A stretch of 64,000 nt of DNA from Nostoc sp. FACHB-280 (GTDB taxonomy: Bacteria > Cyanobacteriota > Cyanobacteriia > Cyanobacteriales > Nostocaceae), in contig NZ_JACJSD010000029.1 in the NCBI RefSeq assembly GCF_014697615.1, forward strand, positions 1-64,000, written 5' to 3'. Positions 17,510 to 32,837 of the stretch are shown here, one piece after another. The position numbers and the translations under genes were made by a program. The notes under the pieces are model-generated. The model saw only the letters and a list, made by a program, of their open reading frames with translations. It had not been told where the DNA came from and did no database searches. Every line of letters starts with the position of its first letter. The stretch's first letter is position 1.

Positions 17510-18970
17510 TTAACTCGACTGTCGCCAGTGTGTAGGAGGTTCAAGATCATCGGGTAGACGGGTTGTGCGATCGCCTACTGCCATGCCAATCTGTTGTGAG
17601 TCTAAGTTTTTCACACCTGTGAGAATTGCGCCTTCTAGTTTGACATCACACAAATTTGTGCCGAATAAATTCGCGCCGATGAGGTTGGCTTTAGACAAAT
17701 TCGCCTCATACAAAACTGCCCGATTCAAATTTGCACCCATGAGATTGGCTTGATATAAATCGGCTTCTGTCAAACTGGCTTCGGTGAGGTTGGCAAAAAA
17801 GACTTCTGTTTGCTGGAGTTTGGCAGCATTTAAATTTGCCCCAGACAAGTTAGCGCCATTCAAGTTGGCGGCTTGTAAGTTCGCGCCAATTAATCCGGCT
17901 AAATGCAAGTTAGCTTTACCCAGCTTTGCCCCTTGTAAATTAGCCAGAAATAATTTTGCACCTGCGAGGTTAGCAACTTTTAAGGTTGCCTGCTGTAAGT
18001 TCGCTTTATACAGGTTTGCCCCTTGTAAGTTAGCTGTACGCAGACTTGCACTTTGCAGGTTAGCAGCACGCAAGTTTGCGCCATAAAGGTTCGCACGGTT
18101 CAAGGTTGCCCCTTGTAAGTTGGCTTCCCGCAGGTTGGCTTTTTGTAAATTGGTTTCGTAGAGAATGGAGCGTACCAGTTTGGCACTGTTGAGATTAGCT
18201 CCCGAAAGGTTAGCGCCGCGTAAATCTGCACCAGAAAGGTCAGAACCGCGTAAATCTGCCCTTTCTAAATTAGCGCCGAGTAAATCTGCTCGCCGAATAT
18301 CTATGTTGCGTAAATCTAATTTTTGACTTTCTAATTCTAATAGGGAATTACGTCTACCAATGATTGTCAGTGCGGCTTGGACATCCCGGCGAATTTTGGG
18401 AGCGGCTTCACTGTTGTGTTTGTTTGCCAATACCCGACTTTTGGGTTTACCCCAATATATAGGCTGTGCATCTTCTTCTTTGAAGAGTTCGCCTTCTGTG
18501 GGAATGCCTGTGTTCTCCCGCACAAATGCCGCCAGGATTTCCATAATTGTCCAGTGTTCTTTAGGAAAATCCTGGGCAATGCGTTCTAACACATAAATTG
18601 CACCGATGCGCGTTTCAATTCTCTCATGACCAAGCTGCGTAATAGCAGCCATAAATCTATCTGCAATCAATCTGTCTTGGGAGATTTGCGTATTTTGCAG
18701 ACTCACTTCGACATTTTTTTCGGAGGCGATCGCATTTTTTTGCATTGCCTCGGCCCGTTTACCTGCATAATAGGCATTAACCATGACTGCCAAGCCTAAA
18801 AACATAATTGCAGTTGTGGTTAATGCTTGCGTTCTGTATTGCATTTGCTGCGAAATTGATAACTCCTTTTTACTGGAGGCAGCAAAAACAATTATATTCA
18901 GCCCCAGCGCGAATACAACTGTTGTACCTATCAACCAACGCAACATTTTGTCTGTCTTATTTGCAGACAT
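17510..18970 (-). CDS. membrane-anchored pentapeptide-repeat protein
   Basis: A 486-residue protein. Two N-terminal transmembrane helices (WLIGTTVVFALGLNIIVFAA and TTTAIMFLGLAVMVNAYYAG) are followed by a helical module (about 95-160, DRFMAAITQLGHERIETRIG and TIMEILAAFVREN), then about 45 pentapeptide repeats of A(D/N)LXX type (about 215-460) that should fold as a right-handed quadrilateral beta-helix. The function of such proteins in cyanobacteria is largely unknown. The helical module recurs in the neighbour at 19253-19993, so the two are paralogs. ATG 18970 is preferred over the upstream GTG; an AGGA lies 11 bases before it. Confidence 0.9.
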   Translation of the reverse strand: MSANKTDKMLRWLIGTTVVFALGLNIIVFAASSKKELSISQQMQYRTQALTTTAIMFLGLAVMVNAYYAGKRAEAMQKNAIASEKNVEVSLQNTQISQDRLIADRFMAAITQLGHERIETRIGAIYVLERIAQDFPKEHWTIMEILAAFVRENTGIPTEGELFKEEDAQPIYWGKPKSRVLANKHNSEAAPKIRRDVQAALTIIGRRNSLLELESQKLDLRNIDIRRADLLGANLERADLRGSDLSGADLRGANLSGANLNSAKLVRSILYETNLQKANLREANLQGATLNRANLYGANLRAANLQSASLRTANLQGANLYKANLQQATLKVANLAGAKLFLANLQGAKLGKANLHLAGLIGANLQAANLNGANLSGANLNAAKLQQTEVFFANLTEASLTEADLYQANLMGANLNRAVLYEANLSKANLIGANLFGTNLCDVKLEGAILTGVKNLDSQQIGMAVGDRTTRLPDDLEPPTHWRQSS

Positions 18971-19252
18971 AGGAATTAGATTCCTCACACTACAGAATTA
19001 TTACTTAGAGGTTGGGATGAGTATAACATTTCGCTCAAGGTTTGAATATGAAATTACGGATTTTTATTGATATTACTTTTATGCTTAAAGTTGTCTTTGT
19101 AATGATATTGTGACAACCACAGAGATAATCTTGAATATTCGCGGACAATTTAGTAGTTTTTCACCCTGATTCTGTGCCAGTACTCAGACTTGTACTGCCA
19201 GAAATTAATAATAATGTTGCGGAATCTGTTCTATTTTCATTAGAAATTGTGT

Positions 19253-19993
19253 CTATCCGGAAAATTTTGCTTCTCGGAAATTAGCTCCATCAAGGATGGC
19301 ATCTTGGAGATTAGTTTGAGACAAATTAGCGAGATAAAAGTTTGCTTTGACCAAATTTGCTTTTGCTAGGTTTGCCCCAGACAAGTTAGCAGAACTAATA
19401 ATTGCTTCCGAAAGGTTTGCACCAGCTAAGTTAGCCTGGGATAAGTTAGCAGCACAGAGAATTGCCCCACTGAGATTTGCACCCGCCAGATTCACTCCTG
19501 ATAAATTAGCTTGGTAGAGATTCACACCTGCAAGGTTTCCACCACTGAGATTTGCTCCTCTTAAGTCTGTATAGCTTAAGTCGAGTTGTTCCGATGCTAA
19601 AGATTTTTGGGTGTCTGTTTTTGTGAGTACCTTCAAAGAAGCCTGAATATCTGGATGAATGTTTGGTGATGACTGACTCTTAACTTCCTGGTGTGTTTTA
19701 TACAGAGAGTTTTGGCGCACAAAAGCCGTGAGAACCTCCATAATTTCCCAGTTCTCTTGTCCATGATAATTGGCTAATTTTTCGAGTTCGGCAATTCCCT
19801 GTAATCTGACATCTAATTTTTGATGATGTAGCTTATCTACTGCCATTCTCAAACGTTTTTTAATGCTTCGTTGCGAGGTATGCTGCTGTTTGTCTTGGCG
19901 GTTAATTATTCCTAATATGATATCGAAAAATAAGTTTTCATTAATTGCATGGTTTTTTTCCGGATGGTTAAAATTGCCGATGTAAGTAAGCAT
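19253..19993 (-). CDS. pentapeptide-repeat protein, soluble paralog
   Basis: A 246-residue protein without membrane segments. Its central helical module (RLRMAVDKLHHQKLDVRLQG, then NWEIMEVLTAFVRQNS) matches that of the pentapeptide protein at 17510-18970, and the C-terminal third is about twenty A(N/D)LSX repeats. The ATG at 19993 is chosen over a TTG five codons upstream. The two paralogs lie in the same orientation 282 bases apart, suggesting local duplication followed by loss or gain of the membrane anchor. No biochemical role can be read from the sequence. Confidence 0.85.
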   Translation of the reverse strand: MLTYIGNFNHPEKNHAINENLFFDIILGIINRQDKQQHTSQRSIKKRLRMAVDKLHHQKLDVRLQGIAELEKLANYHGQENWEIMEVLTAFVRQNSLYKTHQEVKSQSSPNIHPDIQASLKVLTKTDTQKSLASEQLDLSYTDLRGANLSGGNLAGVNLYQANLSGVNLAGANLSGAILCAANLSQANLAGANLSEAIISSANLSGANLAKANLVKANFYLANLSQTNLQDAILDGANFREAKFSG

Positions 19994-20580
19994 TTTTAAA
20001 GATTTCAAAAAGATACTGTTGTGTTTTATTCTCCAAAACCAGTAAAGATTTCGTCATTCGTAAATATAATGATTATTTCAAGCCAATAATTAGAAAATAT
20101 CACTACGTCTAGAGGCAGAAATACACGTCAATACTTTGAAAATTAGTGGTATTTTTCAGTAAAAATACTTTGTATAATGTTTCTCAGTCTGACCAGAAAC
20201 AAATACTCTACAAAACTTGTAACTAGAGGTTTACAAGTCTTTATCCATAGTTCACGATTTTTCTATAGCTTACAAGGTGAGAGCTAATTTTCTCGGTAAT
20301 ACCAAAAATTAAGTAATATTTTATACTAAAAATTATGTATCATTATACTTAGTTGCACAGTCATTCAAGCGAGAATAGCATACTTCTCCTTTGTCAGAGT
20401 GCGTCTACAAGGCACCCGATTACTTGATACATAAATAATACTTAAGTTTTGTTGGCTTTCTTAATTAAATTACTTAACTGTCCTTAAATGTCTTAACTGT
20501 CCTTGCTGATTCACCAAAATCATCAGATGCTGCGATCGCAGCAACGTCAGCAGTTTGCTGTTTATTTGCTGTTGCGAAAG
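19994..20580. other. AT-rich intergenic region with TTAACTGTC repeats at its end
   Basis: No gene seen. Positions 20473-20504 hold two copies of CTTAACTGTCC separated by TTAAATGT. The same words recur upstream of the microviridin precursors at 22361-22456. A TTG-initiated extension of the next gene would run through this repeat and is judged spurious. Confidence 0.4.
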
Positions 20581-22518: not shown

Positions 22519-22674
22519 ATGTCTACAAACACAATTCAAAAAGTGGGTGTGGGAGTGGTACCATTCTTTGCACGTTTCTTGGAAGCGCAAGCGGCAGAAG
22601 GAGAAGGAGAAGGTACAGACATTCCTTCTTGGCCTTGGACTTTCAAGTTCCCTTCAGATGCAGAAGACACTTAA
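22519..22674 (+). CDS. mdnA: microviridin-type graspetide precursor A1 (variant core)
   Basis: A 51-residue ribosomal precursor. The leader contains the helix PFFARFLE (residues 15-22), the ATP-grasp recognition motif of microviridin precursors. The core ends WTFKFPSDAEDT: Thr41, Lys43, Ser46, Asp47, Glu49 and Asp50 provide the canonical ring-forming positions of T-x-K-x-P-S-D-x-E-D. Expected links by family rule: Thr41-Asp47 and Ser46-Glu49 esters, Lys43-Asp50 amide. It differs from the next two precursors in the leader, a Gly/Glu linker, two Trp before the core, Ala instead of Trp inside the ring, and no C-terminal Tyr. The start ATG has AAGGA eight bases upstream. Confidence 0.93.
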   Translation: MSTNTIQKVGVGVVPFFARFLEAQAAEGEGEGTDIPSWPWTFKFPSDAEDT

Positions 22675-22764
22675 TTCTAGTCTTCTAAACCTGGAGTGAC
22701 GGGAGTAGTTTGTTATTAAATAACTGCTAATTCTGAATAAAAACTAACATCAAGGAATAATACC

Positions 22765-22908
22765 ATGTCTACCAACACAAACAAACCAGCAAATGTAGAA
22801 GCAATTCCATTTTTTGCTCGCTTTTTAGAAGAGCAAGCTGCTGAACAAGCAGATAATGCTCCTTACGGACAAACTCTCAAGTATCCTTCTGACTGGGAAG
22901 AGTACTAA
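22765..22908 (+). CDS. mdnA: microviridin precursor A2
   Basis: A 47-residue precursor. The leader is MSTNTNKPANVEAIPFFARF-type with the PFFARFLEE recognition helix; the core is YGQTLKYPSDWEEY. Thr37, Lys39, Ser42, Asp43, Glu45 and Glu46 are the residues that form two lactones and one lactam in microviridins, and the core is very close to known microviridins (for instance microviridin B, FGTTLKYPSDWEEY). AAGGAA lies nine bases before ATG. It is nearly identical to the next precursor, with a repeat period of 236 bases that includes the spacer, so the two come from a recent tandem duplication. Confidence 0.97.
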   Translation: MSTNTNKPANVEAIPFFARFLEEQAAEQADNAPYGQTLKYPSDWEEY

Positions 22909-23000
22909 ATCCAGCTCCCCCTGATTAGCAATTAAGGGAGTAGCTGTTATTGAATAAACAGTTACTCCTGAATAAAAACAAATATCACAGGAATAATACC

Positions 23001-23144
23001 ATGTCTACCAACACAAACAAACCAGCAAACGTAGAAGCAATTCCCTTCTTTGCTCGCTTTTTAGAAGAGCAAGCTGCTGAACAAGCAGATAATGCTCCTT
23101 TCCCACAAACTCTCAAGTATCCTTCTGACTGGGAAGAGTACTAA
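23001..23144 (+). CDS. mdnA: microviridin precursor A3
   Basis: A 47-residue precursor identical to A2 except that Tyr34-Gly35 is replaced by Phe34-Pro35, giving the core FPQTLKYPSDWEEY. The open frame extends 17 codons upstream to 22950, but the ATG at 23001 corresponds exactly to the A2 start and has AGGAA at the same place. Only the exocyclic N-terminal residues of the product differ between A2 and A3, so the cell should make at least two microviridins with the same cage but different tails. A long hairpin follows before mdnB. Confidence 0.97.
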   Translation: MSTNTNKPANVEAIPFFARFLEEQAAEQADNAPFPQTLKYPSDWEEY

Positions 23145-23198
23145 ATCTCTAGTTAGCTTCGTTGTTATTTAATAACTGAAACCTACTCTTGTCTGAGT

Positions 23199-23239
23199 GA
23201 TCGCTTCCATATTCAATTATCCCAAATATGGATGCGATC
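23199..23239 (+). promoter_or_regulatory. long hairpin between precursor genes and mdnB
   Basis: GATCGCTTCCATATT and AATATGGATGCGATC pair over 15 positions with one mismatch around an 11-base loop. No T-run follows, so it is not a standard terminator. Its position 55 bases after the last precursor and 105 before mdnB suggests partial attenuation or protection of the precursor mRNA 3' end, giving more precursor than enzyme. That role is inference. Confidence 0.5.
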
Positions 23240-23343
23240 GCCTTTAGAACTCTGACTTATTGATAGTTAAGTTCTATAGCAAAAAATCTGTTCGATATTT
23301 CTTAAATACCTACTTTACTCATAATTCTAAAAGAGCATATTTT

Positions 23344-24333
23344 ATGCACCTATCTGGTGATGTTGTTTTATTAATTACCCATAGTGGAGACTTTTTCACA
23401 ATAGATAGAGTGGCAGAAGCCTTAACAAAAAAAGGGGCGCAACCATTTCGTCTAGATACTGACAAATTTCCTTTAGAAGTGCAATTAACAGCACAATTTG
23501 ACAAGTTTAAAAGTTACCACACCATAGAATATGGCAATCAATTGATCAGCACAGAACAGGTGCAAGCTGTGTGGATGCGTCGGATTTGGGAACCAAACCT
23601 CAGTCCAGAATTAGCGCCTAAGTTCCGCGAAGCTTGCCTGAGAGAATCAAAAGCAACTTTAGATGGTTTTTGGGATAGCCTTAAACAAGCTCGTTGGGTA
23701 GATGATTTGCAACGGATAGATTATGCCAACAACAAGCTGCGCCAACTGCGAATCGCCTCAGAAGTAGGTTTTGTAATTCCTAAAACCCTTGTGACAAACA
23801 AAGCCGAAGCCGCTAGAGAGTTTTTTGGACAAGTTAATGGCAAAATGGTGAGCAAGCTGTTAACTGCGCTTTCTCGTAGTATGCAGGCTAACTCTTCCTT
23901 CTTTCTTTACACCAGCGTTGTCAAAGAAGAAGACTTACAAGATGCTGAGTCTCTGCGCTACTGCCCAATGGTTTTTCAAGAACAAATACCCAAACAACAG
24001 GAATTACGGGTAGTCTATGTGAATGGCGAGGTGTTTGTCGGGGCGCTGAATGCAGATGTGTATGCAGCCGCCAAAGCTGACTGGCGTAAACCCGGTGTAG
24101 ATGTTGGTGCATGGCAACACCATGAACTTCCTGATGAAATAGTTCGTCGTTTGCAAACCTTTATGGGGAAATTAGGGCTATTGTTTGGCTCGTTTGATTT
24201 TATCCTCACTCCGTCAGGGGAATACGTGTTTTTGGAAGTCAATCCTACTGGCGAGTGGGGAATGTTAGAGAAGGATTTAGACTTACCCATTGCCAATGCG
24301 ATCGCAAATGCACTATTGCAAACCGACAAATAA
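23344..24333 (+). CDS. mdnB: microviridin ATP-grasp ligase, lactam-forming type
   Basis: A 329-residue ATP-grasp enzyme that by family activates a core side-chain carboxylate by phosphorylation and joins it to the lysine amine. The N-terminal signature VVLLITHSGDFFTIDRVAEA and FRLDTDKFPLEVQL match MdnB; the C-terminal FDFILTPSGEYVFLEVNPTGEW carries the Glu and Asn metal ligands. The frame is open to a TTG at 23260, but that adds 28 residues not expected in the family; ATG 23344 has only a weak AAAAGAG upstream. It follows the precursor genes on the same strand and is 73 bases ahead of mdnC. Confidence 0.95.
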   Translation: MHLSGDVVLLITHSGDFFTIDRVAEALTKKGAQPFRLDTDKFPLEVQLTAQFDKFKSYHTIEYGNQLISTEQVQAVWMRRIWEPNLSPELAPKFREACLRESKATLDGFWDSLKQARWVDDLQRIDYANNKLRQLRIASEVGFVIPKTLVTNKAEAAREFFGQVNGKMVSKLLTALSRSMQANSSFFLYTSVVKEEDLQDAESLRYCPMVFQEQIPKQQELRVVYVNGEVFVGALNADVYAAAKADWRKPGVDVGAWQHHELPDEIVRRLQTFMGKLGLLFGSFDFILTPSGEYVFLEVNPTGEWGMLEKDLDLPIANAIANALLQTDK

Positions 24334-24406
24334 TCTAGCAAGACTTCATACTTCAGACTAGTTTGCGGCAAGCCCGTCAAAGCGTCTACACACTTCATAC
24401 TTATTT

Positions 24407-25381
24407 ATGACAGCATTAATAGTTACCTTTAGCAACGACAACGAAAGCATTCCTTTAGTTATCAAAGAAATTGAAGCTAGAGGCGAAAAAGCATTTCGGT
24501 TTGATACAGACAGATTTCCCACTGAAGTCAAGTTAGATATTTACTCTGGTGATAGTGAAAGAGTCATCATTACTGATGGTGAACAGCAGCTTGATTTCAG
24601 CGAAGTTTCTTCCGTTTGGTATCGGCGGATGCGCTATGGGCATAAAATCCCCAATTCAATGGACAAGCAATATCGAGATGCGTCCATTCAGGAATGTCGC
24701 GTCACTGTCAGAGGTATGATTGCCAGCCTCCAGGGATTTCATTTAGATAAAATGTTCAATGTGGATCGGGCGAATAATAAACAGTTGCAATTGCAAACTG
24801 CACAAAAAATTGGCTTGTTAACTCCCCGTACTCTCAGCACAAATAATCCCGCAGCCGTCAAACAATTTGCCCAAGAATGTCCCCAAGGTATTGTCACCAA
24901 AATGCTGTCTTCCTTTGCTATTTATGATCAGCAAGGGCGAGAAAACGTTGTGTTTACCACTCCAGTAACAGCTGATGATCTGGAGAATATGGAAGGGCTA
25001 CGTTTTTGTCCGATGACTTTTCAAGAAAATGTACCAAAGGCGCTAGAGTTGCGGACAACTATTGTAGGACATCGGGTATTCACCGCCGCAGTCGATTCAC
25101 AAAGCTTAGAAGGTTCTACCTTTGATTGGCGTAAAGAAGGTCAAGCCTTAGCTAAGAATTGGCAACCCTACGACTTGCCGGAAGACATTGAGAAAAAGCT
25201 ACTCACCTTGATGGCTGAGTTTGGCTTAAACTATGGCGCAATTGATATTATCGTCACCCCAGATGGTCGTTATGTATTCCTCGAAGTTAATCCAGTCGGG
25301 GAATTTTTTTGGATGGAGATATATTCACCTTATTATCCAATTTCTCAGGCGATCGCAGAAATTTTAGTCACTCAAAAATAA
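24407..25381 (+). CDS. mdnC: microviridin ATP-grasp ligase, lactone-forming type
   Basis: A 324-residue ATP-grasp enzyme, by family the one that closes the two ester rings (Thr-Asp, then Ser-Glu) before the lactam is formed. The opening ALIVTFSNDNESIPLVIKEI and the AFRFDTDRFPTEVKLD segment match MdnC; IDIIVTPDGRYVFLEVNPVGEFFW holds the Mg-binding Glu and Asn. Length fits the family (about 325). It is paralogous to the preceding mdnB (shared RFDTD, NxKQLQLQ, FQENVPKxxELR segments). Between it and the lipase gene is a 400-base spacer containing MITE copy B. Confidence 0.96.
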   Translation: MTALIVTFSNDNESIPLVIKEIEARGEKAFRFDTDRFPTEVKLDIYSGDSERVIITDGEQQLDFSEVSSVWYRRMRYGHKIPNSMDKQYRDASIQECRVTVRGMIASLQGFHLDKMFNVDRANNKQLQLQTAQKIGLLTPRTLSTNNPAAVKQFAQECPQGIVTKMLSSFAIYDQQGRENVVFTTPVTADDLENMEGLRFCPMTFQENVPKALELRTTIVGHRVFTAAVDSQSLEGSTFDWRKEGQALAKNWQPYDLPEDIEKKLLTLMAEFGLNYGAIDIIVTPDGRYVFLEVNPVGEFFWMEIYSPYYPISQAIAEILVTQK

Positions 25382-25489
25382 GCTAGAAAGCCAAATATTC
25401 GGGATTTGTGGTTTAGTCTAGTAACCAAATCTCAAATCCTCAATCTTCATATTAATTATTTGTTAAATAAAATTTTTGAACTACGTAAG

Positions 25490-25602
25490 ACCAATTCTAT
25501 GTGAGTCTGCATTTAATGCTCATATCTCTTCTTTCTTTGTGTTCTTTGCGCCCTTTGTGGTTCGTTCTTTAATTCAGTGCATCTTCATCCAGAATTGGTA
25601 TA
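25490..25602. mobile_element. MITE-like element, copy B, inverted relative to copy A
   Basis: A 113-base sequence starting ACCAATTCTATGTGAGTC and ending CATCCAGAATTGGTATA. It is the reverse complement of copy A (21981-22122) with only scattered differences and lacks the nested 28-base repeat. With copy A it brackets the three precursors and both ligases. The rest of the 25382-25783 spacer is AT-rich and shows no gene. Confidence 0.7.
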
Positions 25603-25783
25603 AGACCATTGTGACTTGCTCAAAATGATATGTACATTATTTTTATTGAAAAAATATAGACATAGATAAAATTGTCACCAATTAATATATTATTAGTTTA
25701 ATTACCAAATTAATTATTCAAAAATTACTATTTAAATTTACTCCTTTAATGACGAATTAATTTTATTTGGAGATTAAAATGCT

Positions 25784-27829
25784 GTGATCAAGAGAGTACA
25801 GACGCAAACAGTTTTAACATTTGATGGGGTAGATGATTACATAGATTTTGGCAGAAATGACCTCGGTGGTGTTTTTGCTCAAGGAAGTTCAGCTTTCACG
25901 GTTTCAGGCTGGATAAACCCTCATAAATTAACCAATAAAGCGACGAGTTACGGAACACGCAATGTATTTTTAGCTCGTTCTTCAGAGCGATATAGTGATA
26001 ACTTTGAATTTGGTATTAGTGAAACAGGAAGCCTAGATATTTATATTGATGAAACCGTTACTAAAGGAATCAAAACCTTTGGTCAAGGGGAGTTAACTAT
26101 AGGAGCATGGCACTTTTTTGCTATTGTTTTTAATCAGGGACAAATTACAGTCCATCTGGATGAACAAGAATACACTGATTCCTTAAGAGGTACAGCTTTA
26201 AACAAAGCAACTAGTCCTTTAACTCTTGGTGCGACCTTACACAAACGTATATATTTTGCTGGGCAATTAGCTAATATTAGCATCTGGAATTATCCCTGCA
26301 CCTCAGAACAAATCCATGTTCATCGTTGTGGACTAATAGTAGGAGATGAACCAGGATTAATGGCTTATTGGAAATTAGATGAAGGTGAAGGGAAGACAGT
26401 CAAAAGTCAAACTGTTACCGACTCCCAAGGAAATTTGCGTGGTAATCCTATTTGGGATGTTGTACAAATTCCCTTTGCAGATCCATCATCACCACCAGAT
26501 GAAATTGCAGTTGAAACAATAACTACTACTGAAGAAGAGATTTCACCAATCACGACAAATTTATTAGCAGCAACGGTCTCTTTAACTAACCAAGAAGAAG
26601 CAACACCAATTAATAATCAAGAATCAGATATTCTGCTCAATCTAGTAACACTCCCGCTACGAGTTACAGAACCAACACAAGAATCTACTAGTCAACGTGA
26701 AGTTGAAGATAATGTTCAACCTTCAGAGGTACCAACATTAGTTCAAAATCAAGCACCAGAAACTATGGAAACTACAGCCAAATCCAAATATAAAATACTG
26801 TCTATTGATGGAGGTGGTATTCGTGGGATTATTCCAGCACTTTTGTTAGCAGAAATTGAAAGGCGGACACAAAAACCCATATTCAATTTATTTGATTTAA
26901 TTGCTGGTACTTCGAGTGGAGGGATTTTAGCCCTCGGACTCACAAAACCTCGCTTAAATTCCGAAGCATCTGAAGAGTTATCTGCGGAATACACGGCTGA
27001 GGATTTGCTGCAACTATTTATTGAGTATGGTGTAGAAATATTTTATGAGCCATTTTTTGAAAGAATACTAGGGCCAATAGAAGATATATTTCTTCAACCA
27101 AAATATCCTTCAACCAGCAAAGAAGCAATTTTAAGACAATATTTTGGCACTGCATCTCTTGAAAATAATCTGAAAGAAGTTTTTGTCACTAGTTACGATA
27201 TTGAACAGCGAGTTCCCATATTTTTTACCAATCAATCACAAAAAGAACAGATAGAATCTAAAAATTTTCGTAATTTGTGTAGAGGGTTTTCGCTATTAGA
27301 TGTAGCATTAGCCACTAGTGCTACCCCCACTTATTTTGCTCCCCATCGGATTCCAACTTCCCACAATACTAGCGGCTTTTACACTTTAGTTGATGGTGGA
27401 GTTTTTGCTAATAATCCAGCCCATTTAGCTATTATAGAAGCACAAATTAGTAGTAAAAAAGAAGCAAACAGAATCCTCAATCCCGAAGATATCTTAGTAG
27501 TTTCTTTAGGTACAGGTTCCTTGACGAGTGTCTACCCTTATAACGAAGTCAAAAACTGGGGACTCTTGCAATGGGGCAGACCTCTTTTAAATATTGTGTT
27601 TGATAGTGGTAGTGAAGTGGTATCTGGAGAATTAGAAAGGTTGTTTGAACATAGCCATCAAGAAGCTAAAAGTTCTTACTATCGATTTCAACCATTTTTA
27701 GATGAGGAACTAGAAGCAATAGATAATATCAAACTTCCAAATACTCGGAAGCTACAAGCTGTAGCCCATCAATTGATTGCTGAAAATAGCCAACAAATTG
27801 ATGAATTATGTAGTCTGTTGTTGGCATAA
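25784..27829 (+). CDS. LamG-patatin fusion: lectin-like domain plus patatin-type acyl hydrolase
   Basis: A 681-residue protein. Residues 1-210 are a LamG/concanavalin-like jelly roll (opening LTFDGVDDYIDFG; later SGWINP and MAYWKLDEGEG). A Thr/Glu/Gln-rich linker (about 225-335) leads to a patatin domain (338-560) with an intact Ser-Asp dyad: oxyanion motif DGGGIRG at 342-348, nucleophile Ser378 in GTSSG, and Asp537 in VDGGVFANNP. Lipid or acyl-ester hydrolysis is expected. No signal peptide is visible. The GTG start overlaps a three-codon ATG CTG TGA frame that lies at better distance from the GGAG site. It sits between mdnC and mdnE, outside the classical pathway gene set. Confidence 0.9.
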   Translation: MIKRVQTQTVLTFDGVDDYIDFGRNDLGGVFAQGSSAFTVSGWINPHKLTNKATSYGTRNVFLARSSERYSDNFEFGISETGSLDIYIDETVTKGIKTFGQGELTIGAWHFFAIVFNQGQITVHLDEQEYTDSLRGTALNKATSPLTLGATLHKRIYFAGQLANISIWNYPCTSEQIHVHRCGLIVGDEPGLMAYWKLDEGEGKTVKSQTVTDSQGNLRGNPIWDVVQIPFADPSSPPDEIAVETITTTEEEISPITTNLLAATVSLTNQEEATPINNQESDILLNLVTLPLRVTEPTQESTSQREVEDNVQPSEVPTLVQNQAPETMETTAKSKYKILSIDGGGIRGIIPALLLAEIERRTQKPIFNLFDLIAGTSSGGILALGLTKPRLNSEASEELSAEYTAEDLLQLFIEYGVEIFYEPFFERILGPIEDIFLQPKYPSTSKEAILRQYFGTASLENNLKEVFVTSYDIEQRVPIFFTNQSQKEQIESKNFRNLCRGFSLLDVALATSATPTYFAPHRIPTSHNTSGFYTLVDGGVFANNPAHLAIIEAQISSKKEANRILNPEDILVVSLGTGSLTSVYPYNEVKNWGLLQWGRPLLNIVFDSGSEVVSGELERLFEHSHQEAKSSYYRFQPFLDEELEAIDNIKLPNTRKLQAVAHQLIAENSQQIDELCSLLLA

Positions 27830-27919
27830 ATTCAAATTAATGATTTCTGTTTTAAAGAAGTCATTAATAATTCTCTGATTCATGTTTTCACCTAATATAC
27901 AAGGATATCGGTAAGTACA

Positions 27920-28324
27920 ATGGATGAACTGGTCAAAAAAATTGCTGGTTTAGGGCTTCCTGGCATATTGTTCGTGATTGCAACAGCCGCATCTGGTGGT
28001 AGTGTCGCCGCAGTTGTCGCTTTACTTTCATCTTTGGGCGGGCCTTTGGGACTGTTGGGAGGTCTAGGTCTGTTGGGATTAGTAGGTGTTTTGGCAGAAT
28101 ATATTGCTGGCTTTGGAATTGAAAACGTTCTTAAACTCGTATATACAGAACGTAGTAAAACCGAATCTGTGAGATTTCTTCTCAAAGAAATCAATGAATT
28201 ACCCATTACAGATGAACTCAAAACCAAACTTCAAGAACATCTTAGTCCAGTAGTTGTTACTGACACTCCAGAGGGAGAGGCTCCAAAAACTATCGAAATT
28301 GTTGAGGAGGAAGCAACAACGTAG
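27920..28324 (+). CDS. small Gly/Leu-rich membrane protein between the lipase and the exporter
   Basis: A 134-residue protein. Residues 8-75 are almost entirely hydrophobic with glycine pairs (LLSSLGGPLGLLGGLGLLGL), enough for two or three tightly packed membrane helices; residues 80-115 are a charged amphipathic helix region (SVRFLLKEINELPITDELK), and the tail is acidic (EIVEEEATT). No signal peptide or enzyme motif. I do not recognise a named family. It follows the LamG-patatin gene by 90 bases on the same strand, so a functional pair (membrane anchor, pore or lipase partner) is possible; a hairpin separates it from mdnE. Confidence 0.75.
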   Translation: MDELVKKIAGLGLPGILFVIATAASGGSVAAVVALLSSLGGPLGLLGGLGLLGLVGVLAEYIAGFGIENVLKLVYTERSKTESVRFLLKEINELPITDELKTKLQEHLSPVVVTDTPEGEAPKTIEIVEEEATT

Positions 28325-28370
28325 TACAGTTGATGGGGAGCGAAAAACCCTCAATTTTTAAAATTACAAG

Positions 28371-28406
28371 ATGGCCTCTGAGTTTAATTTATTACTCAAA
28401 GGCCAT
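28371..28406 (+). terminator. hairpin between the small membrane protein gene and mdnE
   Basis: ATGGCCTCTGAGT (28371-28383) pairs with ACTCAAAGGCCAT (28394-28406), 12 of 13 positions, around a 10-base loop. Only TTTCA follows, so it may be a weak terminator or attenuator rather than a full stop. Confidence 0.5.
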
Positions 28407-28439
28407 TTCAAAATGTCTGGTGTATTTCACTTTTAGAAT

Positions 28440-30455
28440 ATGCAAACTTCATCTGTGCGTGAGCAAAATAATATCAATCCTTTTTCTAGTTTGATTCAAT
28501 TTTGGCAAGATATTAAAATAGTTGCTCAACCCTATTGGTATCCCACAGCAACAGAGGGACGAATATTTTCAGAAGTGATTCGTTCATGGGGAATGCTGAT
28601 TCTCTTGCTATTACTAATAGTCGGGAGTGTCGGGATAAATGCTGCAAATACTTACTGGAATCGTTATGTAATTGATATTGTTATTGAAGAAAGAAGTCTG
28701 GATAAATATAATGATACTTTATGGATATCGAGTTTATTTGTTGTAGCAATTGTTATAGTTGTTACTTTATTAAAGTATGTTACTAAAAAAGTTGCCCTTG
28801 ATTGGTATACATGGCTAAACAATTATATTTTAGGGAAATATTTTAGCAATCAAGCTTATTATAAAATCAATTTTCAATCTAATATAGATAATCCAGATCA
28901 ACGCTTATCTCAAGAAATAGAACCGATTACGAAGATTGCTCTGAGATTTTCCACAACTTTTATCGAAAAGACGCTAGAAATGGCAAGTGCTTTGATAATT
29001 CTTTGGACTATTTCTGCACAAATTGCCATGTATTTAGTGATTTATACAATTGTGGGTAATTTAATTGCTATTTTTTTAAATCAACAACTGAATAAAATTA
29101 ATCAAGAGGAAATTCAATTTAAAGCTGACTTGGCTTATTGCTTGACTCATGTGCGGAATCATGCTGAATCAATTGCTTTTTTTCAGGGCGAAACCGAAGA
29201 ATTAAATATTATTCAACGCCGCTTTAATAATGTTCTTCAAAGTGCAGAACGTCGCTTGAGTTGGGAGCGAGGACAAGATGCTTTTGCTAGAGGGTATCAG
29301 GCTGCGATCGGTGTATTTTCGATGTTCATTCTGACACCTTTATTTTTACAAGACAAAATTGATTATGGAGAAATTAATCAAGTTAGTGTAACTTGTTTTA
29401 TGTTTTCTAATTCTCTGGGAGCATTAATCTCAGAATTTGCTTTGTCTGGGCGTTTTTCTAGTTATGTGAAACGTTTAGCAGAGTTTTCTGATGCCTTAGA
29501 AGCTGTTACTCAAAAGCCAAAGGATGTCAGTGTAATTAGAACACTGGAAGAAAGTAGGTTAGCGTTTGAGGATGTGACTTTGCAAACCCCTAATTATGAA
29601 CAGGTAATTGTGAAAGATTTATCACTTGCCGTTCAGCCAGGGGAAGGGTTATTGATTGTTGGCCCTAGTGGTAGGGGTAAGAGTTCTTTGTTGAGGGCGA
29701 TCGCAGGTTTGTGGAATGCGGGAACTGGTCGTTTAGTCCGTCCTCCACTCAAAGAAGTCTTGTTTTTACCCCAGCGTCCCTACATTATCTTGGGGACTTT
29801 GCGGGAACAGTTGCTTTATCCTCATACAGATCGGAAAATAAGCGATCGCGAACTCGAAGCAATTTTGCAACAAGTTAACCTCCAACACTTGCTGACTCGC
29901 GTCAAAGGTTTTGATACAGAAGTTCCTTGGGAAAATATCTTGTCGTTGGGTGAACAACAACGCCTAGCTTTTGCCAGATTATTAATTACACATCCAAGTT
30001 TCACCATTTTAGATGAAGCGACAAGTGCTTTAGATTTGCAAAACGAAAGTAATTTATATCAACAATTACAAACAACAAACACAACCTTTATTAGTGTCGG
30101 ACATCGAGAAAGTCTGTTTAACTACCATCAATGGGTTTTGGAACTTTCAGGAGAATCTACTTGGCGACTGATTTCTATAGAAGATTATCGTCGAGAAAAA
30201 GAGACTGGTAAACTATCTGGAACAGAAATAGTTACTATAGATGTTTTGCCTAAGCATGAATTGAAAATACAGCCAGAATTAGCAGTAACGGCAACAATTA
30301 TAGGATTGTCTCACAAGGAAATGCAAACATTAACAGACTATTCTCTAGCTACTATTAGAAGCAAAGCCAGTCAAGGTAAATCTGTAACTGCTAAAGATGG
30401 CAAAATATATTACTACAACAAAGACCCAAAGGTTTTGAAATGGATACTCGATTAA
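28440..30455 (+). CDS. mdnE: microviridin-cluster ABC transporter, membrane and ATPase domains fused
   Basis: A 671-residue half-transporter. About six membrane helices (60-360) precede one ATPase domain (385-570): Walker A GPSGRGKSSL near 407-416, signature LSLGEQQRLAFARLL near 500, Walker B FTILDEATSALD near 520. The arrangement and the PPLKEVLFLPQRPYI stretch resemble the SbmA/YddA-like class. No C39 peptidase domain is present, so it does not remove the leader. About 85 extra residues follow the ATPase domain, ending in a small basic domain-like stretch (ATIRSKASQGKSVTAKDGK). MdnE homologs are needed for proper microviridin processing, probably as part of a complex; export is inferred. 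Confidence 0.92.
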   Translation: MQTSSVREQNNINPFSSLIQFWQDIKIVAQPYWYPTATEGRIFSEVIRSWGMLILLLLLIVGSVGINAANTYWNRYVIDIVIEERSLDKYNDTLWISSLFVVAIVIVVTLLKYVTKKVALDWYTWLNNYILGKYFSNQAYYKINFQSNIDNPDQRLSQEIEPITKIALRFSTTFIEKTLEMASALIILWTISAQIAMYLVIYTIVGNLIAIFLNQQLNKINQEEIQFKADLAYCLTHVRNHAESIAFFQGETEELNIIQRRFNNVLQSAERRLSWERGQDAFARGYQAAIGVFSMFILTPLFLQDKIDYGEINQVSVTCFMFSNSLGALISEFALSGRFSSYVKRLAEFSDALEAVTQKPKDVSVIRTLEESRLAFEDVTLQTPNYEQVIVKDLSLAVQPGEGLLIVGPSGRGKSSLLRAIAGLWNAGTGRLVRPPLKEVLFLPQRPYIILGTLREQLLYPHTDRKISDRELEAILQQVNLQHLLTRVKGFDTEVPWENILSLGEQQRLAFARLLITHPSFTILDEATSALDLQNESNLYQQLQTTNTTFISVGHRESLFNYHQWVLELSGESTWRLISIEDYRREKETGKLSGTEIVTIDVLPKHELKIQPELAVTATIIGLSHKEMQTLTDYSLATIRSKASQGKSVTAKDGKIYYYNKDPKVLKWILD

Positions 30456-30529
30456 AGATTCTCATACTTCATCATTAAGTACATCAATTGTATTGAACGC
30501 AAACACAAACAAAAAATTAGGAATTAACT

Positions 30530-31072
30530 ATGCTGAAACAACTGATTACTCACAGATTAAATTTAGTACCTTTTAACTTAGATGTAGTACAAGTAGCAAT
30601 CAAAGGAAATGCCGAATTATCATCATTTTTGGATGTGAAAGTTTTACCTGATTGGTATTGGCATGATGATGAGTTTATGAACAATTTCTCTATGATTGCA
30701 GATATTTTATCCAAATATCCCTTTCAAAGAGAATGGGGTTGGGGAAGTTTAATCATTCATCAAGCGGATAACACCCTTATTGGCCACGTTATGGTGAAAG
30801 TAATTCCTGATAGCACAGGTACACCCACTGGTTCTTTAGAAATTGGCTATTATGTAGCGCCATCATATCGACAACATGGGTACGCATCAGAAGCGACAAA
30901 AGCTGTGATTGATTGGGTATTGTCTCAACCCCATATAAAAAATGTAACTGCTGGATGCGATCGCGATAATATAGCTTCTAAGCGAGTGTTAGAAAAAATC
31001 GGTATGGAGCTTGTAGAATCACGCCAGAATTGTTTGGTCTGGAAATTATCTAAAACAGCTACTGTGCCGTAA
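30530..31072 (+). CDS. mdnD: GNAT-family N-acetyltransferase of the microviridin cluster
   Basis: A 180-residue RimJ/RimL-type acetyltransferase. The acetyl-CoA loop is RQHGYASEA in the segment EIGYYVAPSYRQHGYASEAT; NIASKRVLEKIGM is the conserved C-terminal GNAT helix. By analogy with MdnD/MvdB it should acetylate the N-terminus of the trimmed microviridin. An AGGA lies seven bases before ATG. It follows mdnE by 74 bases and is the last recognisable gene of the cluster. Confidence 0.9.
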   Translation: MLKQLITHRLNLVPFNLDVVQVAIKGNAELSSFLDVKVLPDWYWHDDEFMNNFSMIADILSKYPFQREWGWGSLIIHQADNTLIGHVMVKVIPDSTGTPTGSLEIGYYVAPSYRQHGYASEATKAVIDWVLSQPHIKNVTAGCDRDNIASKRVLEKIGMELVESRQNCLVWKLSKTATVP

Positions 31073-31154
31073 TTTTGCCTGGTTTTTTGCATTAAATCTT
31101 TAGGTGTTGCAATTGATAAAAGTTTGGGGCTAATTATATTTTTTAGAATCTGTG

Positions 31155-32837
31155 ATGTTAGCTAAAAAGCAGAAAAAATTAATTACTTATGAATCGATTA
31201 CGATTTATGAAAAAAAATATAAGTTCCCGATTCTAAAAAATCCTAAGTTAAAGAAGGTTCAAAAAAAAATTAAAAAATGTCAAACCTTAATTAAAGAAGG
31301 TTATAAATCTCATGGTTACTTGTGGGGATTAATTAAACGTAAACAAGAAATTAGTCAAGTTGAGGTTTTAGCAGAAGTTAAATTATTAATTAGGGATTAT
31401 ACTCAACTGTTAGAGTTTTTGGAAAGTTATAAAGATAGTTATCAAGAATTTTTATTAAAATTTATCGATGATTGGAAGAATTTATTTAACCAAAAATACA
31501 GCGAAATTAGAAAAATTAATGAAGAGAGAAATAAGCTAGAAATTAAAAACTTTAAGAATTCCCAAATTCTCGAAAAATTAAAATGGGAGAAAGAAGAAAA
31601 TTTAAAATCTACTTTACTATTAAGTAATACTAATCTTTTAATTTTAGAAAAAGTTCAATTGCTCAGTGCGGGAATTAAATGTTTAGGAGAAGATACTAAA
31701 AATCAGCAGCGAGCTATTCAGCAAATAGCTAAAGATATAGAAATATATCAAGAAATCTATGAATATCAACTCAAAGCGACAAAAATTCGCCAAGAAATTG
31801 CCAAAATAGCAGAAACCGCAATTAATTTGGAAAATTCTCTGCAAGATTACTTTAGTCCATTGCAGTCTTTAATAGATGAGGTGGTAAAAGTAGATGCAGA
31901 TTTTTATGCAACTGTAGGAGAAATTCAAAATTTAGCCAGCAGTAATTTAAATTCTGAAGTAAATTTATTAAAATTCCAAGATAATAATACAATTTCTCAT
32001 AATATTCTTAATTTATTAGTAGCCAGTTACGAAAAGCAAGATAGGCTGCCAGATGCTTTTTTTCAAGTACAATTATTAGATGCTCAAAGTTACGATTTTA
32101 ATATCAATCACGATGAAATAACTGTCAATCAAGCGATTTGCTTAATATCTAATTATATGTCTACCCAACTGGTAGCCCAAAAAGAAGCACTGGGGATAGT
32201 AGAGATAGAGAGAATTGATACTAGAGCAGAAATTCCGATCGCAAAAATTGATTTACCAGAAGTAGCGCAGGATGATATTAAGTTTAGCCAAGCAGAATTG
32301 CAGTTTACAACAACAATTGATTACAGTAAGTTGCAAAGTTTACTAGCAAATTCTAAATGGCAAGAAGCTGATATTGAAACAGCGAAATTAATGTTGCAAG
32401 TTATGGGTAAGAGTGATTGGAATGAAGTTTATCGGGAAGATATTTTAAGTTTTTCTTGTCAAGATTTTCATCATATTGATCAACTTTGGCAAAAATACAG
32501 TCATGGTTATTTTGGCTTTAGTGTTCAACAAAGTATTTGGGATGAAATTGGTGGACAAGTTGATTATGAAACAGAAAAAAAATTAGGCGATCGCCTGGGG
32601 TGGCGAAAAGCAGGAAAATGGTTACAATACGAGCAATTAACTTTTAAATTATCCCCAAATACACCAATGGGACATCTACCAGTTAAATGGTTACACTACG
32701 ACCAAGATACTGTTAGCATATCTTCTAATTTATCTGTAGAGCCGATGTCAATGGGTGCTTGGCGCGTTGGTTCTTGGTTGGTGTGGCAAATGCACCTATT
32801 TTTGACTCGCGTGAAAGTTTGTAACAACAATTGGTGA
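31155..32837 (+). CDS. coiled-coil protein with C-terminal GUN4 domain
   Basis: A 560-residue protein. Residues 1-260 are lysine/glutamate-rich with heptad character, predicted to form long coiled coils. Residues about 390-550 are a GUN4 domain: YSKLQSLLANSKWQEADIET, then HHIDQLWQKYSHGYFGFSVQ and LGDRLGWRKAGKW follow the GUN4 pattern. Canonical GUN4 binds porphyrins and stimulates Mg-chelatase; stand-alone fusions like this one are usually of unknown function and may sense tetrapyrroles. The frame begins GTG ATG; the ATG is used. Base use is distinctly A-rich in the N-terminal half. It lies just behind the microviridin genes but has no known link to them. Confidence 0.85.
   Translation: MLAKKQKKLITYESITIYEKKYKFPILKNPKLKKVQKKIKKCQTLIKEGYKSHGYLWGLIKRKQEISQVEVLAEVKLLIRDYTQLLEFLESYKDSYQEFLLKFIDDWKNLFNQKYSEIRKINEERNKLEIKNFKNSQILEKLKWEKEENLKSTLLLSNTNLLILEKVQLLSAGIKCLGEDTKNQQRAIQQIAKDIEIYQEIYEYQLKATKIRQEIAKIAETAINLENSLQDYFSPLQSLIDEVVKVDADFYATVGEIQNLASSNLNSEVNLLKFQDNNTISHNILNLLVASYEKQDRLPDAFFQVQLLDAQSYDFNINHDEITVNQAICLISNYMSTQLVAQKEALGIVEIERIDTRAEIPIAKIDLPEVAQDDIKFSQAELQFTTTIDYSKLQSLLANSKWQEADIETAKLMLQVMGKSDWNEVYREDILSFSCQDFHHIDQLWQKYSHGYFGFSVQQSIWDEIGGQVDYETEKKLGDRLGWRKAGKWLQYEQLTFKLSPNTPMGHLPVKWLHYDQDTVSISSNLSVEPMSMGAWRVGSWLVWQMHLFLTRVKVCNNNW

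Follow-up and report, generated by a model that had tools for sequence, protein, structure and literature searches.

A LamG-patatin hydrolase and a small glycine-rich protein recur beside microviridin and non-ribosomal peptide clusters of cyanobacteria

The window considered here, a 64,000-nucleotide stretch of Nostoc sp. FACHB-280 (order Cyanobacteriales; contig NZ_JACJSD010000029.1, positions 1 to 64,000), contains what its profile matches identify as a genuine microviridin gene cluster; microviridin is a peptide of ribosomal origin that inhibits proteases. An earlier note on this DNA had placed three copies of mdnA, followed by mdnB, mdnC, mdnE and mdnD, on one strand, with a LamG-patatin fusion and a glycine-rich membrane protein between mdnC and the transporter. 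Profile matches confirm the genes, their common forward strand and their order, and the two extra genes lie where they had been placed (Table 1). We refer to the glycine-rich protein as SMALL. The LamG-patatin/SMALL pair recurs in related genomes, beside ribosomal and non-ribosomal peptide clusters.

A probable hydrolase and a small, probably membrane-bound protein within a microviridin cluster

LamG-patatin is a probable lipid-cutting enzyme. Its LamG domain spans approximately residues 14-178 and its patatin domain residues 339-550, the latter carrying the DGGGxR, GXSXG and DGG motifs and matching PF01734. The catalytic residues, serine 377 of GXSXG and aspartate 537 of DGG, are intact in the window and invariant in 15/15 and 25/25 aligned rows. 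Inspection by eye, without a prediction program, shows no evident signal peptide at the N-terminal end of the open reading frame (ORF), and for this reason we infer a cytoplasmic location. The nearest solved bacterial sequence is CapV, a patatin effector of the cyclic-oligonucleotide-based anti-phage signalling system (CBASS), with which the enzyme shares a patatin domain with intact catalytic residues. Unlike the CBASS effectors, it is fused to LamG, is linked to peptide clusters, and scores below the cut-off of the CapV equivalog model (NF041079, 166.5 bits against a cut-off of 200); among the ten proteins of the block there is neither a CD-NTase/cyclase nor any other CBASS partner. Matches to PADLOC phospholipase effectors reach 206 bits.

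SMALL begins 90 bp downstream and has no match in Pfam, NCBIfam or PADLOC, nor a significant match by sequence in the PDB. Its structural model is all-helical with a confident core (predicted local distance difference test score, pLDDT, 79 overall), residues 112-134 falling below 50. Searches of the PDB and viral fold libraries returned nothing at E <= 0.001, so the fold assigns it no function. Among the 19-residue hydropathy windows listed, all those starting at residues 1-55 average above 1.1, and together with the helical model this suggests that SMALL probably sits in the membrane. Its C-terminal tail has the form P[RK]T[VI]EIV[DE]E, here PKTIEIVEEE. The window thus holds both parts of the module that we propose, a LamG hydrolase and an adjacent, tail-bearing SMALL.

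The surrounding genes are those expected of a microviridin (graspetide group 1) cluster, a class whose products are tricyclic and closed by lactone and lactam bonds. All three precursors exceed the cut-offs of PF12559 (21 bits) and NF033738 and combine a PFFARFL leader with a TxKxPSD core, and both the MvdC- and MvdD-type ligases exceed their own. The exporter and the N-acetyltransferase, likewise above cut-off, are genes that part of the microviridin clusters lack, according to passages of a review (PMC7823629) that also mentions additional mdnF/G genes. The core of mdnA1 is of the TFKFPSD type, has its own leader and resembles the published Nostoc punctiforme precursor. The other two precursors share the ring region TLKYPSDWEEY, their proteins differ at two residues before it, and the two genes, identical in 196/213 aligned columns, appear to have arisen by tandem duplication. 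Multiple precursors are ordinary among the loci examined (cited below by L numbers, and genomes by G numbers), with ten in L072 and five in L176.

Table 1. Genes of the block, with positions in the window and the profile matches on which each assignment is based
Gene or product	Position	Strand	Evidence
mdnA1, microviridin precursor	22519..22674	+	PF12559 36.8 bits, NF033738 35.5 bits; PFFARFL leader
mdnA2, microviridin precursor	22765..22908	+	PF12559 43.4 bits
mdnA3, microviridin precursor, apparent tandem duplicate of mdnA2	23001..23144	+	PF12559 43.0 bits
mdnB, MvdC-type ATP-grasp ligase	23344..24333	+	TIGR04185 529 bits (cut-off 425)
mdnC, MvdD-type ATP-grasp ligase	24407..25381	+	TIGR04184 557 bits (cut-off 475)
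LamG-patatin, GTG start	25784..27829	+	PF13385 63.8 bits, PF01734 87.1 bits, both above cut-off
SMALL, 134-aa glycine-rich protein, probably membrane	27920..28324	+	no family match
mdnE, ABC exporter of ABC_membrane_2 type	28440..30455	+	PF06472 125.7 bits, PF00005 73.5 bits
mdnD, GNAT acetyltransferase	30530..31072	+	PF13302 79.7 bits, above cut-off
561-aa protein with C-terminal GUN4 domain	31152..32837	+	PF05419 126.6 bits

Intergenic gaps in the block measure 73-199 bp, except for 402 bp (25382-25783) between mdnC and LamG-patatin; the corresponding gaps of mdn-linked relatives are mostly 87-310 bp and reach 513 bp where the genes are directly adjacent. The 402-bp gap could hold a promoter of its own for LamG-patatin, in keeping with N. 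punctiforme, where the lipase and membrane genes were induced separately, as described below. Promoter-like sites in the region (41) are not clearly above those of shuffled sequences (33.6, standard deviation 5.8). Since the GUN4 gene also recurs in relatives, the recurrent block extends beyond 31072; the protein starts at either 31152 (GTG) or 31155 (ATG), and its GUN4 part also matches PADLOC PD-T4-6 (124 bits). Upstream of the cluster, the minus strand encodes two pentapeptide-repeat-like proteins (17510-18988 and 19253-20008), in which many A(N/D)LxxANL repeats are visible by eye.

Recurrence of the pair beside peptide clusters

TIGR04184, SMALL and LamG-patatin served as queries against 388 genomes of the order. 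MvdD exceeds its cut-off in 65 of them, and in ten of these 65 a LamG-patatin lies, by listed coordinates, within 2 kb of it (G000, G344, G265, G240, G384, G359, G330, G035, G313 and G258). The insertion is therefore a recurrent variant and not part of the mdn core. It is not unique to this window. The microviridin N3-N9 cluster of N. punctiforme PCC 73102 (Npun_F2189-F2193) is described, in the sections cited here, as mdnB, mdnC, a putative lipase, a predicted transmembrane protein and an ABC gene (PMC7660261), which is the gene order of the window. The precursor there is of the similar TYKFPSD type; unlike that cluster, the window has three precursors and a GNAT gene after the ABC transporter.

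Named genomes, scanned with 15 aligned LamG-patatins as the query, yielded 69 loci, four genomes contributing two each. Seven (L175, L177 and L188-L192) have no LamG ORF. Within 10 kb, or 12 kb for non-ribosomal peptide synthetase and polyketide synthase (NRPS/PKS) genes, the remaining 62 have SMALL in 58 cases, mdnB/C in 31, NRPS/PKS genes in 37, mdn or NRPS/PKS genes in 52, hph-like genes in 11 and GUN4 in 31. When the LamG fragment of L134 is left out and stricter NRPS rules are used with 10 kb throughout, the 61 named LamG-patatins have SMALL in 58, mdn in 30, NRPS/PKS in 34, either of these in 49, an ABC gene in 36 and GUN4 in 31. A set of 35 LamG-patatins from the order genomes, which shares genomes with the named set, gave similar proportions (SMALL 32/35, mdn or NRPS/PKS 29/35). 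In contrast, SMALL, mdn, NRPS/PKS, ABC exporter and GUN4 genes were each found in 0/20 of the fetched flanks of patatin-only paralogues of the order. The 20 controls were drawn from the listed patatin-only matches and show 44-51% identity across the patatin domain, and in 7/20 the flank is shorter than 9 kb on at least one side.

Given SMALL at 58/61 and peptide genes at 49/61, against 0/20 controls, we read the pair as a portable accessory that serves peptide clusters of both the ribosomal and the non-ribosomal kind. The co-occurrence with a small membrane protein that the earlier note had raised is borne out in the named genomes. That note had held that the link would be chance if the pair stood mostly beside unrelated genes and near mdn genes only here, and this is not what we find. 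Its idea of an extended microviridin pathway fares less evenly. A conserved extension exists, with 29 LamG-patatins of the 61-row tree described below (the window's included) having mdnC no more than 2.5 kb away on their own strand, at identities down to approximately 60%. An action on microviridin or its target is unsupported, as the pair also stands at NRPS/PKS clusters and the hydrolase may be replaced by Tle1-like or sulfatase variants; a microviridin-specific tailoring or receptor role is on these sequence comparisons unlikely.

A tree of 61 rows including the window comprises 29 mdn-linked, 18 NRPS-linked and 14 other rows. Most mdn-linked LamG-patatins form one lineage, a deep and separate mdn-linked row being that of L169 (uncultured Coleofasciculus), and with the 'other' rows excluded the linkage switches between mdn and NRPS about three times. 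Judged by this tree, the association is old; most of it has been passed down by descent, and the pair has changed cluster type a few times. Some genomes have the pair at one end of an NRPS cluster that includes isopropylmalate-dehydrogenase- and aconitase-like genes, which resemble HphB/HphCD of anabaenopeptin clusters. In five genomes microviridin genes lie at the opposite end of the NRPS cluster, 32-40 kb away by coordinates (G058, G298, G374, G379 and G387); the intervening DNA of G058, G298 and G374 holds NRPS genes, and G379 and G387 are placed by coordinates alone. In the first three, NRPS and microviridin clusters stand end to end with LamG-patatin at the far end (L083+L104+L105, L078+L106+L107 and L091+L108+L100, respectively).

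Exchangeable hydrolases and the SMALL family

Beside SMALL homologues, LamG is also found fused to a Tle1-like phospholipase (PF09994) or to a sulfatase (PF00884). The 28 LamG-Tle1 ORFs in the order loci represent 16 distinct places, twelve of which were fetched twice. SMALL lies within 76 bp of LamG-Tle1 at 13 of the 16, and a GUN4 gene then follows at 11, all in genus g88, where the gene order is ABC, a 389-406-aa protein (DUF6014 in L271, the only one scanned), LamG-Tle1, SMALL and GUN4. NRPS genes stand 4.2-4.4 kb from this block in L271, L277 and L278. LamG-sulfatase occurs full-length at three places, with an adjacent SMALL at two, both in g88. Tle1-like domains are known from effectors of the type VI secretion system (T6SS); here the likeness is that of a catalytic domain taking the place of patatin beside SMALL homologues in relatives, and the block in this window differs in having no Tle1-like domain.

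The LamG domain is 60% identical between a patatin and a sulfatase protein, and 66% identical between a Tle1 protein and a protein that matches lipoxygenase weakly, whereas the LamG of the window is only 23-25% identical to the LamG domains of those pairs. Domains have therefore been exchanged. Further partners of LamG or Tle1 domains are a class 3 lipase, a stretch that matches lipoxygenase weakly (28 bits) and a haem peroxidase domain. Two such proteins, one in which LamG is joined to the weakly lipoxygenase-matching stretch (L280, 8070-10844, +) and one in which a Tle1-like phospholipase carries an animal haem peroxidase domain (L282, 8750-11509, +), are possible lipase/oxylipin enzymes of cyanobacteria.

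SMALL itself forms a branch within a wider, unnamed domain family of cyanobacteria, which has a member in 153/388 genomes of the order (E <= 1e-4). Its tail, matched with a regular expression looser than the form given above, is present in 59/64 SMALLs of the named loci and in 3/21 SMALLs of the divergent-member loci, these three standing beside GUN4 (L196), beside hph-like and NRPS genes (L204) and beside NRPS genes (L208). Among five further SMALLs the expression fits those of L101-L103 and not those of L098 and L100. In genus g88, SMALLs lie beside NRPS genes in L101, L208, L219 and L220, and in L103 SMALL lies downstream of the exporter and GNAT genes. Within the 20 divergent-member loci, the family domain is twice fused to an Mrr_cat nuclease domain (L207, 6537-7304, -; L210, 8704-9465, +); the other divergent members are forms of approximately 210-225 aa. 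Type I restriction genes adjoin divergent members in 4/14 neighbour-scanned loci (L198, L202, L205 and L211). SMALL would thus belong to an unnamed membrane-domain family that is elsewhere joined to nucleases.

Candidate functions of the pair

These data allow us to propose, with about even confidence, that the pair is a portable accessory of cyanobacterial peptide factories, consisting of a LamG hydrolase and a small helical protein of the membrane, in many cases accompanied by an ABC_membrane_2 exporter and GUN4, which acts on the producer's own lipids and aids export, storage or release of the peptide. Here the module would attend a microviridin cluster and in relatives non-ribosomal peptide clusters. 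SMALL in the membrane would recruit or hold the cytoplasmic hydrolase, perhaps via its C-terminal tail, and the lectin-like LamG domain would steer it to lipid head groups. The enzyme would then cut the producer's own membrane lipids at the site of peptide export or storage, and so aid secretion, self-protection or controlled release; it would not be expected to modify microviridin. A sensor role for the GUN4 protein is a guess.

In a broader and more tentative form of this proposal, unrelated peptide factories (microviridin, anabaenopeptin-like NRPS and others) share an undescribed polymorphic delivery or release device. LamG with an exchangeable hydrolase (patatin, Tle1-like or sulfatase), a SMALL that docks by its tail, the ABC exporter and GUN4 as a possible damage sensor would open or remodel membranes so that protease inhibitors leave when needed.

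Experiments on N. punctiforme are described in the cited sections of PMC7660261. In an alkane-overproducing strain F2189 (mdnB), F2191 and F2192 were 10.6-, 6.5- and 6.3-fold upregulated, respectively, and according to one section F2190 (mdnC) and F2193 (ABC) were not; the joint rise of the lipase and transmembrane genes speaks for the accessory reading. F2191 is termed a 'putative glycolipid lipase' and F2192 a predicted transmembrane 'protein of unknown function'. A plasmid with F2189-2192, at 12-14 copies, abolished stainable lipid droplets; the strain grew like the control in standard light, and 8 days of high light left it with 11% more biomass. F2191 alone gave small changes in fatty acids (C16:0 -4.1% in stationary phase). 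The authors propose that microviridin sequesters hydrophobic compounds or that regulators are stabilised, and in those sections they discuss the lipase and transmembrane genes solely in connection with microviridin production and raise no role in other clusters. If the proposed module acts as we suggest, the lipase and membrane protein would be an alternative cause of the droplet loss, compatible with the published constructs.

Several observations weigh against the accessory reading. Within the N. punctiforme work, F2191 and F2192 are equated with LamG-patatin and SMALL by gene order and description. On F2190 PMC7660261 contradicts itself, since a second section counts this gene as upregulated. 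F2189 alone already lowered the droplets and no droplet change is reported for F2191 alone ('most' strains being without visible change), which means that the droplet loss need not stem from the lipase. The structural model of LamG-patatin is poor (pLDDT 52). The looser tail expression was composed after the alignments had been seen, and the mdn-linked SMALL of L100 misses it. Most rows of the tree are Nostocales by title and share ancestry, and since only about three mdn/NRPS changes occur on the tree much of the linkage is inherited; the rows being related and not independent, a Fisher test on linkage is only indicative. No mdn or NRPS/PKS gene lies within 10 kb at 12/61 named loci. Five of these (L151, L158, L161, L186 and L187) have less than 5 kb on at least one side; L153, L154, L157 and L182 are flanked by approximately 10 kb on either side and do have ABC and GUN4 genes there. 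An adjacent SMALL is missing at 3/16 LamG-Tle1 and 1/3 LamG-sulfatase places, the GUN4-linked Tle1 and SMALL-linked sulfatase places are confined to one genus (g88), and SMALL was found near 0/13 ORFs (10 places, several with 1.5-kb flanks) of LamG proteins with other C-terminal parts.

The best surviving alternative, though we think it rather unlikely, is that the pair is a release or suicide module, in which wounding, grazing or stress leads the lipase to break the cell's own membranes and free fatty acids and stored inhibitors, with GUN4 as a possible damage sensor. The resemblance of the patatin domain to CapV and to the PADLOC phospholipase effectors is consistent with such a role, as are the naming of the Tle1-like family for T6SS phospholipase effectors and the weak lipoxygenase match or haem peroxidase domain on other LamG/Tle1 proteins of the order. 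Microviridins are also protease inhibitors, as stated in the cited passages of PMC7823629. Against this, the control-like growth of the N. punctiforme plasmid strain in standard light (PMC7660261) indicates that extra copies alone are not lethal.

Tailoring of the product, in which the patatin adds or removes an acyl group on microviridin and so lengthens its pathway, appears improbable. It draws on the position of the gene inside the cluster, between mdnC and mdnE, and on the fact that patatins can act on ester bonds. Alpha/beta hydrolases, a different family, are frequent in microviridin loci and predicted to be possible graspetide modifiers in the cited part of a graspetide survey (PMC8939145), which also lists a family of uncharacterised membrane proteins whose role is unclear. 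However, the module accompanies chemically unrelated NRPS/PKS clusters, which disfavours tailoring, and its hydrolase may be Tle1-like or a sulfatase. Moreover, the microviridins of N. punctiforme, from a cluster of the same gene order, are described in the cited passages as non-acetylated with a variable N-terminal extension (PMC7660261, PMC7823629).

We hold it no more probable that a CBASS-like anti-phage effector has lodged in the cluster. The PADLOC effector matches and the distant SMALL-family members, with their Mrr nuclease fusions and neighbouring type I restriction-modification genes, would suit a defence gene; however, the CapV score falls short of the CBASS cut-off, the block has no cyclase or other CBASS partner, and the linked genes observed are those of peptide biosynthesis, defence genes around LamG-patatins not having been searched for. 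That the genes are functionally unlinked neighbours brought together by chance or hitch-hiking is very improbable: many rows share ancestry and linkage changes on the tree are few, but linkage is absent from all 20 paralogue controls, three types of LamG hydrolase adjoin SMALL homologues, and the type of linked cluster has switched about three times.

The puwainaphycin NRPS/PKS cluster of Cylindrospermum ends in an unexplained patatin-like orf2 and an ABC-transporter-like orf1 (PMC4219810), and so resembles the window in combining, within a peptide cluster, a patatin-like phospholipase gene with one of the ABC transporter family; this comparison is by description, and the source passage mentions neither a LamG domain nor a small membrane protein. 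In the literature searched, from which subscription papers were mostly excluded, we found no published name or description for the shared module.

To our knowledge, the export, storage and release of cyanobacterial protease-inhibitor peptides are poorly understood. A module common to ribosomal and non-ribosomal clusters would, if our preferred reading is true, provide one genetic handle on all three processes. It could also account for orphan patatin-like genes in peptide clusters, and would suggest another way to read the disappearance of lipid droplets published for Nostoc punctiforme.

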